From assembly GCF_014284235.1 (NCBI RefSeq), contig NZ_JACOGD010000006.1, positions 33,207 through 97,206 of the forward strand: a stretch of DNA of 64,000 bases, given 5' to 3'. Source of the stretch: Cognatundibacterium curvum (GTDB taxonomy: Bacteria > Pseudomonadota > Gammaproteobacteria > Burkholderiales > Burkholderiaceae_D). Position 1 is the first letter of the stretch. Each line of letters starts with the position of its first letter. Shown here piece by piece: positions 26,551-62,608 of this stretch. The position numbers were made by a program, and so were the translations under genes. The notes under the pieces are model-generated. The model made no database searches and was not told the DNA's origin. It was given only the letters and a program-made list of their open reading frames with translations.

Positions 26551-27204
26551 TTAAACCGGTTCAGCACGCCGTACAAAAACCAGATGACGCTCTGCATTTA
26601 ATCCCGGTACCTGCAGCGGCTGCACGCCTGTGACGGCCCAGCCAGCTGGCAGACGTTCGATTTCCTGGGCAGGTGCGACACCTTTCATGGCGATAAATTG
26701 CCCGCCTTCAGCCAGTAAATGACCTGACCAGTTGATGAAATTACAGAGCTCAGAAAAGGCGCGGGAAGTGATTACATCAAATTTTTCTGTGACTTCCAGC
26801 TGCTCTACCCGGCCGGTAAAGACGGTGACATTGCTGAGTCCAAGTTCGGCTTTGGCCTGGCTCAGGAAGGCGGTTTTTTTGCTGACCGTGTCTATCATGG
26901 AGATACGTGTCTGAGGATAAGCAATCGCCAGCATCATGCCTGGCAAACCACCACCGGCACCTACGTCCAGCACATTGCGCGCATCCACAAATGCAGGTGC
27001 GGCTGACAGCGAATCCAGCAAATGCTGCTTCACCATTTCCTGCGGATCACGGATTGCAGTCAGGTTGTACACCGCATTCCACTTCGACAGCAGGGCCAGA
27101 TAAGCCAGCATCTGATCGATCTGGGCCTCATTCAGTGCCAGCCCCATTTCCTGCACGCCAGCGCTTAAACTGACCTTGAGTGCCTTGGTATCCAAGATTG
27201 CCAT
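26551..27204 (-). CDS. rsmG: 16S rRNA (guanine527-N7)-methyltransferase RsmG
   Basis: A 217-residue SAM-dependent methyltransferase (also called GidB). The SAM motif is [34 protein letters not shown] and GGQFIAMKG are further family blocks. Its ATG overlaps the mnmG stop by one base (TAATG). Confidence 0.97.
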
Positions 27205-29171
27205 TACGCGTCTCCTGCGGCCGTTTGGACGCTTTCCTGAGCATGTTCCGCTGCGGGGACTGCTGCCATAAACTCTTTAAATCCTTTTTTCTTCAGATGC
27301 ACCAGTAACAGCGAAATCGCGGCGGGTGTCACGCCGGAAATCCGGCCGCACTGGCCCAGCGTTTCAGGCTGATGCTTATTCAGCTTCTGCCGTACTTCTA
27401 TCGACAGCCCGCTGACCTCCATGTAGTCAAACGCCTTAGGCATTTTCAGGTTTTCATAGTGGGCATGACGCTCGACTTCTTTCGCCTGGCGGTCGATATA
27501 ACCCGCATACTTGACCTGGATTTCCACCTGTTCGCGTACCGCCGGATCAGCAATTGCCGGGCCAGCCAGGTCTTGCTGCTCGACGCCGCGCAAGCTCATC
27601 AAACTTTCATAATTGACTTGCGGACGACGCAATAAATCGGCCAGCGAGTATTCACGCTCCAGCGCTTTACCCAGCACGCGCTCTGCTTCTGCAGCAGCCA
27701 GAATACGCGGATTGACCCAGGTGGTACGCAGTCTTTCCATTTCACGTGCAACCTGTTCGCGCTTGTTCTCAAATGCCTGCCACTGTGCGTCGCTGACGCA
27801 ACCTAGCTGACGCCCGATCTCGGTCAGGCGCATATCGGCATTATCTTCACGCAGACTGAGGCGGAATTCAGCACGGCTGGTGAACATGCGATACGGCTCC
27901 TGCACACCCTTGGTGATCAGATCGTCTACCAATACGCCCAGATAGGCTTCGTCACGGCGCGGCACCCAAGCTTCCCTTCCCTGAGTTTGCAAAGCGGCAT
28001 TCAGGCCAGCCAGCATACCTTGCGCTGCAGCCTCTTCATAACCGGTAGTGCCATTGATCTGACCTGCAAAGAACAAGCCCTCAATTTGACGGGTTTCCAG
28101 CGAAGACTTCAAGCCACGTGGATCAAAGTAATCGTATTCAATCGCATAACCCGGACGCAGGATGTAGGCATTTTCCATGCCGCGCATAGAACGCACGAGG
28201 TCCAGCTGCACGTCGAAAGGCAGGCTGGTCGAGATACCGTTAGGGTAGAACTCATTGGTGGTCAGGCCTTCCGGCTCCAGGAAAATCTGATGCGATTCCT
28301 TGCTGGCGAAGCGGTGTATCTTGTCTTCGATAGACGGGCAGTAACGCGGACCGACGCCCTCGATCACGCCGGTGTACATAGGGCTTCGGTCGAGTCCGGC
28401 ACGGATGATGTCGTGGGTTTGTTCATTGGTATGGGTGATCCAGCATGGCACCTGCTTAGGATGCATGGCGGTTGTTCCCATGTAAGAAAATACCGGTACC
28501 GGATCCAGATCACCAGGCTGTTCCTGCATCACTGAGAAGTCGATACTGCGGCCATCGATGCGTGGCGGCGTGCCAGTTTTCAGACGCCCTTGCGGCAAAG
28601 CCAGCTCTTTCAGACGGGCTGACAGCGACACCGCAGGCGGGTCACCGGCACGGCCAGCGGCGTAATTATTCAGCCCCACATGGATCTTGCCATCGAGAAA
28701 AGTCCCTGCGGTCAGCACCACGGCGCGGGCACGGAAGCGTATACCGACCTGGGTCACCGCACCAACCACGCGATTGCCTTCCACCAGCAAGTCATCCACT
28801 GCCTGCTGGAACAACCACAGATTCGGCTGATTCTCAAGACGGCTGCGTATCGCTTGTTTGTATAAAATCCGGTCTGCCTGAGCACGGGTTGCGCGCACCG
28901 CTGGCCCCTTAGAGGAGTTCAGGATGCGGAACTGTATGCCAGCCTCATCGGTTGCAATCGCCATTGCACCACCCATGGCATCAACCTCTTTGACCAGATG
29001 ACCCTTGCCTATCCCACCGATGGAAGGATTGCAGGACATCTGACCCAGGGTCTCGATGTTGTGGGTCAATAACAGCGTGGACTGCCCCATACGCGCGGCG
29101 GCGAGGGCAGCTTCAGTGCCGGCGTGACCACCACCGACAACAATCACATCGAATTCTTTAGGATAAAACAT
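27204..29171 (-). CDS. mnmG: tRNA uridine 5-carboxymethylaminomethyl modification enzyme MnmG
   Basis: A 655-residue FAD enzyme that with MnmE modifies the wobble uridine of several tRNAs. Seen: dinucleotide fold [52 protein letters not shown] and the C-terminal [20 protein letters not shown]. The ATG at 29171 gives the family N-terminus ([14 protein letters not shown]); the frame stays open to 29288 but that extension would run through a parS site and is not conserved in type. Confidence 0.97.
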
Positions 29172-29271
29172 GGCTAGCTTCTGACAAACAAGGACACGGA
29201 GAGTCAGGATTATAGTTTGTTTTCGCGCAGCGCCCTCACCTTCTGCATCCCGGATAAAAAAATAAGCCTGA

Positions 29272-29287
29272 TGTTTCACGTGAAACA
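29272..29287. promoter_or_regulatory. Perfect parS site
   Basis: TGTTTCACGTGAAACA, an exact match to the 16-bp chromosomal parS consensus, upstream of mnmG. It is one of a pair 111 bp apart. Confidence 0.97.
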
Positions 29288-29382
29288 TCAGGCTTACCTC
29301 AAGTACAAACTCAAAAAATGGGCTTTGGAATTTTGTGTTTTACATCACAATCGAATCAAGCAAGTTCGAAACAGCGATGCCA

Positions 29383-31496: not shown

Positions 31497-31522
31497 TGTG
31501 GATGAGGGCCAGCTTATCCACA
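31497..31522. promoter_or_regulatory. DnaA-box palindrome (TGTGGATGA-N8-TTATCCACA)
   Basis: Two facing 9-mers with start-to-start offset 17 bp, the same geometry as the palindromes in the 50-52 kb region. It lies 28 bp past the alcohol dehydrogenase stop; without a T-run it is not a classic terminator. Confidence 0.5.
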
Positions 31523-49151: not shown

Positions 49152-50261
49152 ATGGTGGCTGACACCCTATGGCTGATGACCGCACGTTCACGCGGCGCCA
49201 GTCATTGGGTGGAAAACAGCCATTGCACCATAGAACAGCTGGATATAGACGGACATCCGGTTCCGGTGAGCCATCTGACTAAAAGTCAGTGGCAGGAAAG
49301 CTATGTCAGCAGCCTGCGCTCCGCCTGGTTACGCTACCCCCATCAGGAAGCTAAGCGCCATTTAACAGCAGGCCAGCTGGCGCTGTATCAGGCCGCCTCT
49401 TGCTTAATTCTAGGCCCGATATCCTTACTGATGCGCGCCGCCAGGCTGGATCAGGCTGCTATCCTGGCAAATCATCTGATCTCCACCAACCTGTATCCGC
49501 CATGGTTGCAAACCTCTATGCCCGAAGTTTTATGGCAGGCGCAACAACATTATCCGGATCGCCCTATCGTATTGCGAAATTTATGCCCGGCAGTACATCC
49601 CGAGCTGTTTGAGCAACTCAGGCAACAAGGCTGGCAAATGATCCCAGCGCGCCAGGTCTATTTATGTGATCCGGCCGATCCGGCGGTATGGCAACACAAT
49701 CACGTGCGTAAAGATGCCCGCTTGCTCGCTGATCAGGAAGTCGAACTGGTCGCCGCCAGCGCCTTACAACGTGAAGATATTCCAGCTTTGAGACGGCTAT
49801 TCCGTCAGTTGTTTATCGAAAAACATTCCTGTCTGAATCCGGATTTCAGTGATGATTTCTTTGAATTTTGCCTGGAAACGCAATTTCTGGATTGCTATGC
49901 ACTACGCTGGCAAGGCAAATGGGTAGGAATTCTGGGGGTGTATGCGCAACCGGAGAGCGGATGGATGACGACTCCACTCATAGGTTATGACACCCAGTTA
50001 CCTAAAGAATTAGGAATTTACCGTCGTTTAATGGCTTTATTACTGAAATTAGCCAAAGATAAGCAAATGAAGCTGCATTACAGTTCAGGTGCAGCCCAGT
50101 TCAAACTAGCCCGTGGCGGACAGCCAGCGCTTGAATATACTGCAGTCTACAGCCAGCATTTGCCGGTACTAAATAAGCTCAGTCTGAACCTGTTCAGCCG
50201 TTTATTACAACGCTGCGCCCCTGGCATTCTGTCTTATGCCGATAAACAAAAACCTGGCTAA
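49152..50261 (+). CDS. GNAT-like acyltransferase, partner of the BtaA-like gene
   Basis: A 369-residue protein starting 40 bp after the BtaA-like stop and so cotranscribed. It has no signal peptide; residues about 220-340 look like a GNAT/FemAB-type acyltransferase fold (REDIPALRRLFRQLFIEKHS, DCYALRWQGKWVGILGVYA, KLHYSSGAAQFKLARGG). The start is uncertain: ATG 49152 or TTG 49128. It shows no methyltransferase motif, so it is not BtaB. A role in acylating or modifying the lipid head group or a lipid precursor is inference from context. Confidence 0.65.
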   Translation: MVADTLWLMTARSRGASHWVENSHCTIEQLDIDGHPVPVSHLTKSQWQESYVSSLRSAWLRYPHQEAKRHLTAGQLALYQAASCLILGPISLLMRAARLDQAAILANHLISTNLYPPWLQTSMPEVLWQAQQHYPDRPIVLRNLCPAVHPELFEQLRQQGWQMIPARQVYLCDPADPAVWQHNHVRKDARLLADQEVELVAASALQREDIPALRRLFRQLFIEKHSCLNPDFSDDFFEFCLETQFLDCYALRWQGKWVGILGVYAQPESGWMTTPLIGYDTQLPKELGIYRRLMALLLKLAKDKQMKLHYSSGAAQFKLARGGQPALEYTAVYSQHLPVLNKLSLNLFSRLLQRCAPGILSYADKQKPG

Positions 50262-50444
50262 TCCCCCTTTTCAAACCGCAGGATCTTTCAAATGTTCAGT
50301 CCTGCGGTTTGTCAGGCTGATACAAAAACCAAAGAAAACCATCACCAAATGCTGGGGCTCATGCCAGGTCCTGGCAGTGCTGCCGGATGTCACCAGAGTA
50401 AAAATTGAAATAGAAACCAGCAAAAATGCACACTTTTTCAGCGC

Positions 50445-50690
50445 AATTCTCTGTGCATAACTGCGCTTATATCCCCAATACAGTTTGGGGAAAACCAAAA
50501 CTCTGCTGAAAAAAAATTTTTTTATCCCAAATCTGTCCTTTTCCTATACAAGCTTTATCAGTCCACATATACAGTCGCTAAGTGCTTGACTATGTGGGTA
50601 AAAACAGACTTATCCACATTTATCAGCTGCGTTAACAACTATTACTATATATATATAAATTAAAGACTCTATTTATACGCCGCAAACCAA
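50445..50690. repeat. DnaA-box intergenic element, copy A
   Basis: Palindrome 1 is TGTGCATAA-N8-ATATCCCCA at 50452-50477. Palindrome 2 lies 141 bp further, TGTGGGTAA-N8-TTATCCACA at 50593-50618. CTATACA at 50544 and GTTAACAACTAT at 50631 are shared with copy B at equal spacing. Confidence 0.75.
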
Positions 50691-51061
50691 AAACGCGGCC
50701 TGAATGAAAAACCCTGAGGGATAAACCGTGTCGCTAATCCAAGCAAATTTGAAAATATCCAAATAAGGTAAAAGCGCGTTTCTGACTAAAGTTGTTCAAG
50801 CAACTCAAGCATGGAAGTTGTTGATGAAGAAAAATTAAAATCCATGTCAGCGTTTTTAATGAATTCTTGAATGATTTTTTTAAATAAAAATTGCACAGCT
50901 TTTATTGCAAACCCGTTTTTCTCAAAGATTGATGATTGCAGGCTAAAAAGGAAGCACTGCGATAGCGGCTAGCAAGTGGAAAAGTCACTTTTTTTCCGCT
51001 ACAGACTGCATAAATGTCCATTTGCTAGCTAGAAATGTGGCTAAAAACGACTTTTTGAAAA

Positions 51062-51305
51062 TATTTTTTGTGGATAAGTCTACTTATATCCACTGCATAG
51101 AATGTGCGAATAGTGGTTTTCATTTGAAGAGCGACTTTTTTTACAGAATTTGTCCGCTTTCTATACAGACTTTCTGCACTTGTTTATCAATGCGCTAAAG
51201 TTTTGATTCTGTGGATGTTTACTTAGTTATCCACAGACAAGACAGGCTGTTAACAACTATCACTATTTTTATTTAAAGTTATTCATATTAAAGCTATCCA
51301 CACGC
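51062..51305. repeat. DnaA-box intergenic element, copy B
   Basis: Palindrome 1 is TGTGGATAA-N8-ATATCCACT at 51069-51094. Palindrome 2 lies 141 bp further, TGTGGATGT-N8-TTATCCACA at 51210-51235. CTATACA is at 51161 and GTTAACAACTAT at 51249. Copy B lies directly upstream of the DUF2059 gene. Confidence 0.75.
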
Positions 51306-51377
51306 CAAATTCCAGCTTTCCCCTTTTTCAAAAAAATCCTTTAGAATCCGACACTTATTCGAATTCAAAGGCGGGTT

Positions 51378-51890
51378 ATGAAAATCTGGACAGCTAGTGC
51401 GTTAAGCTTTTTGCTGGTGAGTGGTTTTGCCTGCGCAGAAAAACCGACTGAGCAATCGGTGAAAGAATTTTTGGAGGTGTCCAAAGGTAAAGAAACTTTT
51501 CAACAGATAGAAAAGCAACTAGACACCGTACTGGATAACTTCAACCGTGAAGCAGATTCAGGAAAATCTGCCGACCTGCAAAAACAAAAAGCAGTAGAAA
51601 AATTTAAAGCAAAAGTATTGAGTATTCGTAACGAAGCGATGAATTGGGACAAACTCGAATCCATGTTTATCGGAATTTACCAGGACAGCCTGAGCCAGGA
51701 AGAAATTGATGGTTTGATACAATTTTACCGTTCTCCGGTTGGACAGGCATCTTTAACAAAAATGCCACAAATTATGCTGAAAACGAATCAACAAATACAG
51801 GTAACGCTCCTTCCGATGATGGATAAAATCAAATTAGCCAGACAAGATTTGAAAGAAGAATTCGAAAAAATTGATAAGAAGAAAAAATAA
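51378..51890 (+). CDS. DUF2059 domain exported protein
   Basis: A 170-residue protein with a signal peptide (KIWTASALSFLLVSGFACA-EK) and the helical DUF2059 core (AMNWDKLESMFIGIYQDS, LSQEEIDGLIQFYRSPVGQA). Lysine-rich C-terminus. The function is unknown in the family. It lies between DnaA-box elements B and C in an AT-rich neighbourhood. Confidence 0.85.
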   Translation: MKIWTASALSFLLVSGFACAEKPTEQSVKEFLEVSKGKETFQQIEKQLDTVLDNFNREADSGKSADLQKQKAVEKFKAKVLSIRNEAMNWDKLESMFIGIYQDSLSQEEIDGLIQFYRSPVGQASLTKMPQIMLKTNQQIQVTLLPMMDKIKLARQDLKEEFEKIDKKKK

Positions 51891-52318
51891 GTGTTCTCGA
51901 TTTTGTGAGAACGAAAGAAATTGGGACAAAGGCTTACACTTCATTAATCGTTTTCAATAAGCGTGTACTGAGTTGTCTGTTGTGGGTAAGCCTAAACTTA
52001 TCTACGGGGATGGCGGTAGGAAGCAAGATTCCTGATTGTTACTTACGTAAAAAATACAAAAAATAAACTTCTTTAGACTCGGAAATTGAAGGCAGTTGCT
52101 CAGGTTTTCGTGTGTATAACTGACTCAATATCCACATTGACCAGTGCGCTACGCTGATACCTGGTAGTGCAAAACCTGCTCAATTTGTAAAAAAAATGCT
52201 GGCTGGCATATCGTCAGCGCAAAATAGATGCACTTCATTCCTGAAAAATGAAATGAAAATCGCAGCAGATAAGGTTTATCTGTCGTGATATCTCTGAAAA
52301 TTCTGCATTGGAGCGTCT
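51891..52318. repeat. Gap holding a third, diverged DnaA-box element (copy C, about 51975-52150)
   Basis: 428 bp without a gene. Palindromes TGTGGGTAA-N8-TTATCTACG (51981-52006) and TGTGTATAA-N8-ATATCCACA (52111-52136) are 130 bp apart, the same 17-bp offset inside each. The rest is AT-rich. It precedes the zinc-ribbon membrane protein gene. Confidence 0.6.
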
Positions 52319-53404
52319 ATGTATCAACAATTACGTGCACCGGAACGTTTATTCCGGCTTGGTCAATGGGTAGTCGCATTCTTATTTGCCTTTTTTCTCA
52401 TCAAAGTCGGTGCCAGTCTGATCGCTGATCTGCCCTTGTTATCCACAGGTCCGCAGCAAAGTGATTTTTTAGATCAGCGCAGCGCGCAGCAAGTACAACA
52501 GCAAATATTGCCCTTGGAACAAAGTATTGCCGAATTGCAAAAATATGCTGAATTAAGTCAGGAGCGCTTACTCCGTAGTCAGGATGAGTACAGTAAGGAT
52601 AAGCAAAGTTTTGATAACTGGCGTGCTGCACGCGGCAGCACTGAGCAGGCGGAAAATAATCCCGAGGTGATCAGCCGGGTCAGAAAACTGGATGAACAAC
52701 TCAAAAAGCAAACTGCTATTTCCTCCGAACTACAACAATGGCAAAAGAAAATCGAAGCACAACGTGATCGTTTGCAACCCTTACAGCAACAGCTCAACGC
52801 GCTCAATAATCAGGCCAATCAGGCTTATGAGCAGGCGCTGTATCACTCCTCCTTAAAAGCATTCGCAATACGCTTATTGTTTGTCGCGCCTTTATTGATT
52901 GCTGCTATCTGGTTATTTCGCCGCCATCGCAATAGTCAGCACTGGCCCTTCGCCTGGGGCTTTATCTTTTTTGCCTTATTCGCCTTCTTTTTTGAGCTGG
53001 TTCCCTATCTGCCCAGCTTTGGCGGCTATATCCGCTATGGGGTTGGCGCTTTACTGACCTTTCTCGGCGGAAAAGCCTTAATGCACGCGCTGCAGCAGTA
53101 CCTGGAAAGAAAGCATCAGGAACAGACTGCGCCACAGGAAGAACGCAAGCAGGAGATCCGCTACGAAAAGGCGCTGGAGTCTATGGCCAAAGGACAATGC
53201 CCGGGTTGTGAACGAGGCATGCCGGGCATAGAAGGAGCAGTCTTGAACTATTGCATGCATTGTGGCCTGAAAACGCATGAAGTCTGTAGTCAATGCGGTT
53301 TGCGACATAATGCGTTTTTCCCCTATTGTCCTGCATGTGGATCGGCTGCTGCTGCCCATCCCAGAGCCGCAACTGTTACGCAGGAAAGTAAAAATCAGGC
53401 ATGA
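52319..53404 (+). CDS. Membrane protein with coiled coil and C-terminal zinc ribbon
   Basis: A 361-residue protein, family not recognised. N-terminal membrane helix (WVVAFLFAFFLIKVGASLIA), a long glutamine-rich coiled coil (about 50-170), three more hydrophobic helices (about 180-260), then a cytosolic tail with six C-x-x-C-type cysteines (CPGCERG, CMHCG, CSQCG, CPACG) forming a double zinc ribbon. Possibly a membrane-bound scaffold; function unknown. Confidence 0.75.
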   Translation: MYQQLRAPERLFRLGQWVVAFLFAFFLIKVGASLIADLPLLSTGPQQSDFLDQRSAQQVQQQILPLEQSIAELQKYAELSQERLLRSQDEYSKDKQSFDNWRAARGSTEQAENNPEVISRVRKLDEQLKKQTAISSELQQWQKKIEAQRDRLQPLQQQLNALNNQANQAYEQALYHSSLKAFAIRLLFVAPLLIAAIWLFRRHRNSQHWPFAWGFIFFALFAFFFELVPYLPSFGGYIRYGVGALLTFLGGKALMHALQQYLERKHQEQTAPQEERKQEIRYEKALESMAKGQCPGCERGMPGIEGAVLNYCMHCGLKTHEVCSQCGLRHNAFFPYCPACGSAAAAHPRAATVTQESKNQA

Positions 53405-62307: not shown

Positions 62308-62608
62308 CGATGGTGAGTACTAACAAATAATTATATTTAGCCTTATTGTCCTGATCTTTTACACAATATATAAACAGCATATCAACAAGATATTCAGTGT
62401 TTATACATGGCTTATACATAAGTTATACCGGGTTTATACAGATGTTTTCCATGGTTTATGCACGCACTTATCCACAGTCTGGCAAGCGCGAAATCGCATA
62501 AAAAATCCTGTTTGTTCACATCCTGAGCTCTAAGCCATAGCAGCGCTAAGTTCTGATTGCTGTTTCGCTTTACAATCTCAGTCTTGCTGATACAGACGGA
62601 CAAAACAT
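62308..62608. promoter_or_regulatory. AT-rich gap upstream of ribE with an 11-bp direct-repeat array
   Basis: 301 bp. The left part (62310-62400) is very AT-rich. From 62401 come six 11-bp units with starts at 62401, 62412, 62423, 62434, 62445 and 62456 (TTATACATGGC, TTATACATAAG, TTATACCGGGT, TTATACAGATG, TTTTCCATGGT, TTATGCACGCA), then a perfect TTATCCACA at 62468. No FMN riboswitch was seen before ribE. Confidence 0.8.

Follow-up and report, generated by a model that had tools for sequence, protein, structure and literature searches.

Organization of the locus

The window analysed here is the whole stretch of 64,000 nucleotides from Cognatundibacterium curvum, corresponding to C54:33207-97206 on its contig. 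Between 50.4 and 52.2 kb it carries several pairs of facing DnaA boxes, arranged in two similar modules, A and B, and in a further element, C. The features referred to in the text are the following:

27204-29288, minus strand: mnmG/gidA (Pfam GIDA), the steady neighbour of the modules
50452-50670, plus strand: putative oriC core module A, delimited by alignment (two box pairs with 115 bp between them, followed by GTTAAC, the trios and an AT-rich run)
50452-50477, plus strand: palindrome 1 of module A, TGTGCATAA-N8-ATATCCCCA
50593-50618, plus strand: palindrome 2 of module A, TGTGGGTAA-N8-TTATCCACA
50610-50665, plus strand: putative unwinding element of A, with TTATCCACA, a linker, GTTAAC (50631), CTATTACTA trios (50639-50647) and an AT-rich run
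51069-51290, plus strand: putative oriC core module B, delimited by alignment
51069-51094, plus strand: palindrome 1 of module B, TGTGGATAA-N8-ATATCCACT
51210-51235, plus strand: palindrome 2 of module B, TGTGGATGT-N8-TTATCCACA, with GTTTAC across the left box and the spacer
51227-51280, plus strand: putative unwinding element of B, with TTATCCACA, a linker, GTTAAC (51249), the interrupted trios CTA-TCA-CTA-TTT-TTA (from 51257) and AT-rich DNA
51378-51890, plus strand: DUF2059 (PF09832) gene, to the right of module B (Pfam E 1.7e-16)
51981-52136, plus strand: element C, two more facing box pairs without a module

Seven facing-box palindromes occur in the window, at 50452, 50593, 51069, 51210, 51981, 52111 and 31497, with 3, 1, 2, 2, 3, 2 and 1 mismatches, respectively, to TGTGGATAA-N8-TTATCCACA. 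A previous sequence-only reading had placed six of them in 50.4-52.2 kb and the seventh at 31497, with spacings of 141, 141 and 130 bp within the pairs, and all these values are correct. The palindrome is also commoner than shuffling predicts: 100 shuffles gave a mean of 0.01 palindromes and never reached the observed 7. When the whole genome (57 contigs, 4.25 Mb) was searched with a palindrome pattern containing one N and allowing up to 3 mismatches, seven of the eight places with at most 2 mismatches fell on contig C54 and one on C44; a control pattern read backward gave 0 and 4 matches, against 16 and 14 for the true pattern (at most 3 mismatches). Lone facing-box palindromes lie at 31497-31522 of the window and, just past its end, at C54:98692-98717. 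Both are present in the close relative G011, whose palindrome series is that of the U. crateris contig.

Although the palindromes proposed as the building unit are real, the proper unit is longer, namely a module of about 220 bp that holds two of them. Modules A and B, taken for duplicates on account of the common words CTATACA and GTTAACAACTAT, indeed align throughout, and the duplication recurs across the genus. In contrast, element C shows no alignment with A or B outside the boxes; the refuting outcome named in the sequence-only reading, a lack of alignment past the DnaA boxes, applies to C and not to A and B. The pair spacing of C varies from species to species, U. crateris having 108 bp, this genome 130 and U. 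rugosum 140, and no trio repeat was seen by eye after it. With no module in C, and with the 31497 palindrome standing apart as a separate site, the idea of a family of three elements finds no support. The position of elements before genes was, on the other hand, well observed: B ends 88 bp before the DUF2059 gene (51378), and C precedes the ORF at 52319. The protein encoded by 52319-53404 shares 93% identity with its counterpart in U. crateris, 90% with that of U. rugosum and 63% with that of U. jejuense (Oxalobacteraceae).

A comparison of positions 46-56 kb with Rfam returned six matches up to E 5, none of which reached the gathering score; the notion that the elements represent a small RNA family was dropped once the relatives turned out to be Undibacterium. 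At the left end of the window, four ORFs of 87 amino acids follow one another (192-1265) at start-to-start distances of 270 bp, which hints at a long protein made of repeats.

Anatomy of the module

In each module of about 220 bp, TGTGGATAA is followed 158 bp on by TTATCCACA, and then by GTTAAC, CTA/TTA trio-like repeats and AT-rich DNA. This layout was measured in 50 modules from 25 Undibacterium genomes, four matches in G008, G019 and G021 being left out. The start-to-start distance between the two boxes is 158 bp in 49 modules and 157 in one, counts that are not independent and that somewhat favour 158 bp, because the modules are related to each other and were picked by a profile. All 50 modules have an exact TTATCCACA, which in 46 of them has a GTWWAC site no more than 22 bases away. 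Three or more strict trios come next in 39 modules and fewer than three in the other 11, including B of C. curvum, under a motif stricter than the NAN of the original paper; the spacer between box and trios, with a single box scored, measures 17-21 bp in 39 modules (20 in A of C. curvum). In an alignment of 25 modules from 13 genomes GTTAAC is invariant, in A and B kinds alike, and the few gaps all fall near GTTAAC or in the AT-rich tail.

The 19 modules measured in other genera of the family follow the same plan with more latitude, as the box distance ranges from 157 to 160 bp (158 in 10), TTATCCACA is exact in 13, at least three strict trios are found in 13, and the spacer between box and trios is 13 bp in seven.

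In C. curvum, module A has an unbroken run of three trios and weaker boxes in palindrome 1, while module B has better boxes and a broken run, interrupted by TCA here as well as in U. crateris (G011) and U. rugosum. Compared with U. rugosum, identity amounts to 85% in A, 89% in B, 95% in the DUF2059 gene and 76% in the region around C (51891-52318), against 47% in the DNA between the modules; with respect to the closer U. crateris, this contrast between modules and inter-module DNA is absent.

Position on the chromosome

The sequence-only reading proposed mapping the elements against the GC-skew minimum. On C54 (364,912 bases, 96 N), the cumulative GC skew reaches its minimum in C54:83001-84000 (window 49795-50794), the 1-kb bin of module A (C54:83654-83873). 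At 5-kb steps the skew turns at 85 kb, and in the window cumulative G-C falls to about 51 kb and then turns. The floor is shallow to the right, bins 6-8 kb off lying within 35-41 of the minimum of -1858 and the listed bins remaining no more than 41 above it as far as about 91 kb. The dnaA gene, at C54:301630-303003, is 217 kb from the modules and far up the rising arm of the skew.

A comparable picture is provided by G015, assembled in one contig. Its modules are found at 2,076,748-2,077,634, and the skew is lowest in bin 2,077,001-2,078,000 (1-kb bins over 60 kb), the bin of the second module, with dnaA at 2,390,016, 312 kb off. In a 400-kb profile with 5-kb bins the lowest value comes after the bin that holds the modules, and across twenty 20-kb samples the skew falls and then rises. 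In G004, also sampled 20 times, the cumulative skew is lowest after the module-holding sample, at a step of 229 kb that is too coarse by itself to tell the modules from dnaA, 150 kb off.

Base composition and box density point in the same direction. GC content is 36.6% in window 51-52 kb, against roughly 52% over the contig, and AT-rich runs follow the trios. DnaA boxes with at most one mismatch peak at 7 in the best 1-kb window of C54, where the mean is 0.36 per kb. The locus brings together the cumulative GC-skew minimum, the DnaA-box cluster and the AT-rich region by which an oriC is recognized.

A different arrangement of boxes lies 11 kb to the right of the modules, at 62401-62476 (plus strand), flanked by a LysR gene and a riboflavin-synthase-like gene. 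Here seven DnaA-like boxes on the same strand, identified by eye, follow each other with an 11-bp period (12 bp in the last step), the final one being an exact TTATCCACA. Arrays of this kind also occur close to the modules of G011 and G003, and at a greater distance in G002; with any match counted, the pattern occurs in 5 of 27 genomes and its backward control in 7 of 27. The array could be a titration or reactivation site.

Distribution and copy number

R1, the profile used for the searches, derives from modules of U. rugosum and of 12 genus genomes out of the 25. Its matches to A (50448-50667, E 4e-41) and B (51065-51288, E 9e-42) in the window are therefore strong by construction, as both were in the model. 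R1 finds modules in all 25 genus genomes, including 13 outside the model. At least two full-length modules share a contig in 21 of the 25 (three in G013), always in the same orientation within a pair. The two modules of G008 are on separate contigs, and G006, G019 and G021, assemblies of about 320-600 contigs, have one each; two extra genus genomes (G233 and G263) have two modules each. In G013, a single contig, the three modules span L100:6461-8282, and two A-like copies are mutually nearest.

At the level of the order, 102 of 399 sampled genomes match R1 at E 1e-4. Among nine genomes from other genera of the same family, eight match and seven of these have two or three modules: three in G080, G293, G322 (one opposite-strand overlap being omitted from the count) and G403, two in G041, G202 and G377, and one in G165. 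The ninth, G125, gave no module match at E 1e-4, and no module was found in the 21-kb stretch of U. jejuense. Tandem cores are, in other words, a conserved architecture. They may not be confined to the family of Undibacterium, since five genomes outside it (G157, G216, G277, G307 and G390) show two partial same-strand matches no more than 0.6 kb apart.

Gene neighbourhood and ancestry of the copies

The most constant neighbour of the modules is mnmG. It lies 3-28 kb from them in 26 genomes out of the 27 searched, the exception, G125, being the genome with no module match. In the 13 genus genomes with dnaA on the same contig, this gene is 81-332 kb from the modules. A search for module relics beside dnaA gave no match, even at E 10, in 30 loci, of which 25 belong to the genus and 5 to other genera of the family, nor was any relic seen in a set of 15 loci; about 1.5 kb on either side was covered, some of these flanks being cut by contig ends. 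Among the 18 genomes of other families that score best, 12 (from four genera) have a weaker homologue downstream of dnaA, at most 0.6 kb from it, and six do not; G062 and G179, chosen because their match lies at a contig start, also have it downstream of dnaA. As these homologues sit directly downstream of dnaA, this place may be the old one of the core, which would have moved towards mnmG in the family of Undibacterium.

The distance between A and B is about 0.8-0.9 kb in six genomes (G001, G007, G009, G016, G023 and G024), and an ORF of 247-261 amino acids fills the gap in all four that were probed (G001, G009, G016 and G023). In G001 the ORF that splits the putative origin (L131:670-1452, minus strand, 261 amino acids) matches PF01048, the phosphorylase superfamily, and we take it to be an MTA/SAH nucleosidase.

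In a tree of 67 module rows, from which U. crateris was omitted, the labels A and B change 2 and 3 times, respectively, against about 20 after shuffling, and in none of 23 Undibacterium pairs are a genome's own A and own B mutually nearest. Nevertheless, a single old duplication is disfavoured by the six genomes with the wider gap, whose A rows and B rows are sisters (86/88, not starred), by the two A-like copies of G013, and by the clustering of the two copies of G041 and of two of the three of G080. The tree is compatible with a single origin of A and B without establishing it.

Comparison with known origins

The modules resemble the basal unwinding system (BUS) of Bacillus subtilis, which is predicted in most bacterial origins and, in the available part of its description, consists of a DnaA box with at most 2 mismatches, a spacer of 0-16 bp, which a second weak box may lengthen, and at least three consecutive trios with the motif NAN (PMC8287927). 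The Undibacterium modules have in common with it the DnaA box, a spacer and repeats with the 3'-GAT-5' trio. They differ in that the spacer is mostly 17-21 rather than 0-16 bp, the box is paired with a facing box, GTTAAC precedes the trios, and one origin has two or three such sets.

The bipartite origins of B. subtilis and Helicobacter pylori, as presented in the accessible part of a review, have two box-cluster subregions, one of which harbours the DUE, and the gene between them is usually dnaA (PMC4285127). The Undibacterium modules recall this organization in having two neighbouring clusters of DnaA boxes, separated in some members of the genus by a gene. In Undibacterium, however, both copies carry an unwinding-like part with GTTAAC and an AT-rich tail, both trio runs are unbroken in several species, the copies are homologous to each other, and they lie 81-332 kb from dnaA.

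Within the Burkholderiales, the skew of Cupriavidus metallidurans CHR1 switches about 90 kb from dnaA (PMC2864759), and the c1 origin of Burkholderia cenocepacia has been described, together with GTWWAC and CACAG methylation at the origins of this species (PMC4948915, PMC7364216). Both are origins at the skew minimum with several DnaA boxes, as in the locus described here; the portions of these papers that were available describe neither tandem copies nor a module of fixed spacing. No report of tandem origin cores in the family of Undibacterium was found among the titles and abstract openings of the open-access papers listed.

A probable tandem-core origin and its alternatives

The GC-skew minimum, the AT-richness, the box cluster, the trio-like repeats and the weaker homologues after dnaA in other Burkholderiales support the view that 50452-51290 is very probably the chromosomal oriC of an Undibacterium, made of two tandem copies of a core of about 220 bp. 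It would most likely be an unusual origin, in which two complete, similar start units follow one another at a great distance from dnaA, in a layout that recurs throughout the genus.

According to the mechanism we infer from the sequence, with DnaA binding, unwinding and both cores at work, DnaA would bind in each core to two facing box pairs 141 bp apart. Because 158 bp correspond to about 15 turns at 10.5 bp per turn, the outer strong boxes TGTGGATAA and TTATCCACA would face the same side of the helix. DnaA would be led from the downstream TTATCCACA across GTTAAC to the CTA/TTA trios (3'-GAT/AAT-5' on the other strand), and would open the AT-rich DNA next to these so that the helicase can be loaded. 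Element C and the nearby single boxes would have an accessory role.

Of the functions suggested by the sequence-only reading, an origin-like site is thus strongly supported, titration is disfavoured and operators of another factor are rejected. Since oriC adjoins dnaA in many bacteria, and the DnaA boxes are dense here, the modules might be titration or reactivation sites of the datA/DARS type, with the true oriC at dnaA. This is very unlikely, as the skew minimum is at the modules and not at dnaA, the 30 dnaA loci are devoid of module matches, homologues in other families are found downstream of dnaA, and the modules are followed by trio-like repeats and AT-rich DNA. Even harder to credit is that a transcription factor using the same 9-mer controls the genes at 51378 (DUF2059) and 52319: B and C do stand just before genes, but relatives of the DUF2059 protein occur in 11 of the 25 genus genomes against 25 of 25 for the modules, A is followed by B and not by a gene, and the skew minimum would be left unexplained. 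On these grounds the operator reading was rejected.

How the two copies of the proposed oriC share the work is less clear-cut. There is a real chance, somewhat short of even, that only one module is the working origin and that the other copy loads DnaA or has a regulatory role, in the manner of bipartite origins, which are described with one unwinding element in the part of the review at hand (PMC4285127). The unequal equipment of A and B in C. curvum would fit such a division, as would the six genomes with a gene-sized distance between A and B and, in the four probed, a gene-sized ORF within it. Against it, both copies have 4-5 unbroken trios in G014, G005 and G010, and the invariance of GTTAAC extends to modules of both kinds. 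We advance only tentatively, as a possibility of lesser than even weight, a multi-core origin in Undibacterium and in most of the sampled genera of the family, with two or three tandem cores, each of which DnaA can open, and with copies that keep their identity across species. In this multi-core origin the A and B copies would divide the work, for example between tight DnaA binding and easy opening, a division suggested in C. curvum by the complementary defects of the two copies, or would load one helicase each.

Methylation and significance

A lead for further work is a methylation link at GTWWAC. In the module stretches of the 16 relatives counted, GTWWAC reaches 2.7-14.1 sites per kb, against 0-1.4 elsewhere in the same loci; the origin of C. 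curvum has three sites, a number that other 1-kb windows of C54 reach too. CACAG is not enriched at this origin, the top windows of C54 lying elsewhere. One or two PF01555 methyltransferases are encoded in each of seven family genomes.

The origins covered by the available part of the bipartite-origin review carry one unwinding element (PMC4285127), and recurring tandem cores offer a natural system in which to study several opening sites per origin and the choice that DnaA makes between them. Clean targets for mutation are available in the 158-bp rule and in the conserved GTTAAC, which is of the GTWWAC type methylated, according to the accessible literature, at Burkholderia cenocepacia origins. 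Finally, R1 is a usable oriC profile for a family with origins away from dnaA, which may escape dnaA-centred searches precisely because they do not lie beside this gene.
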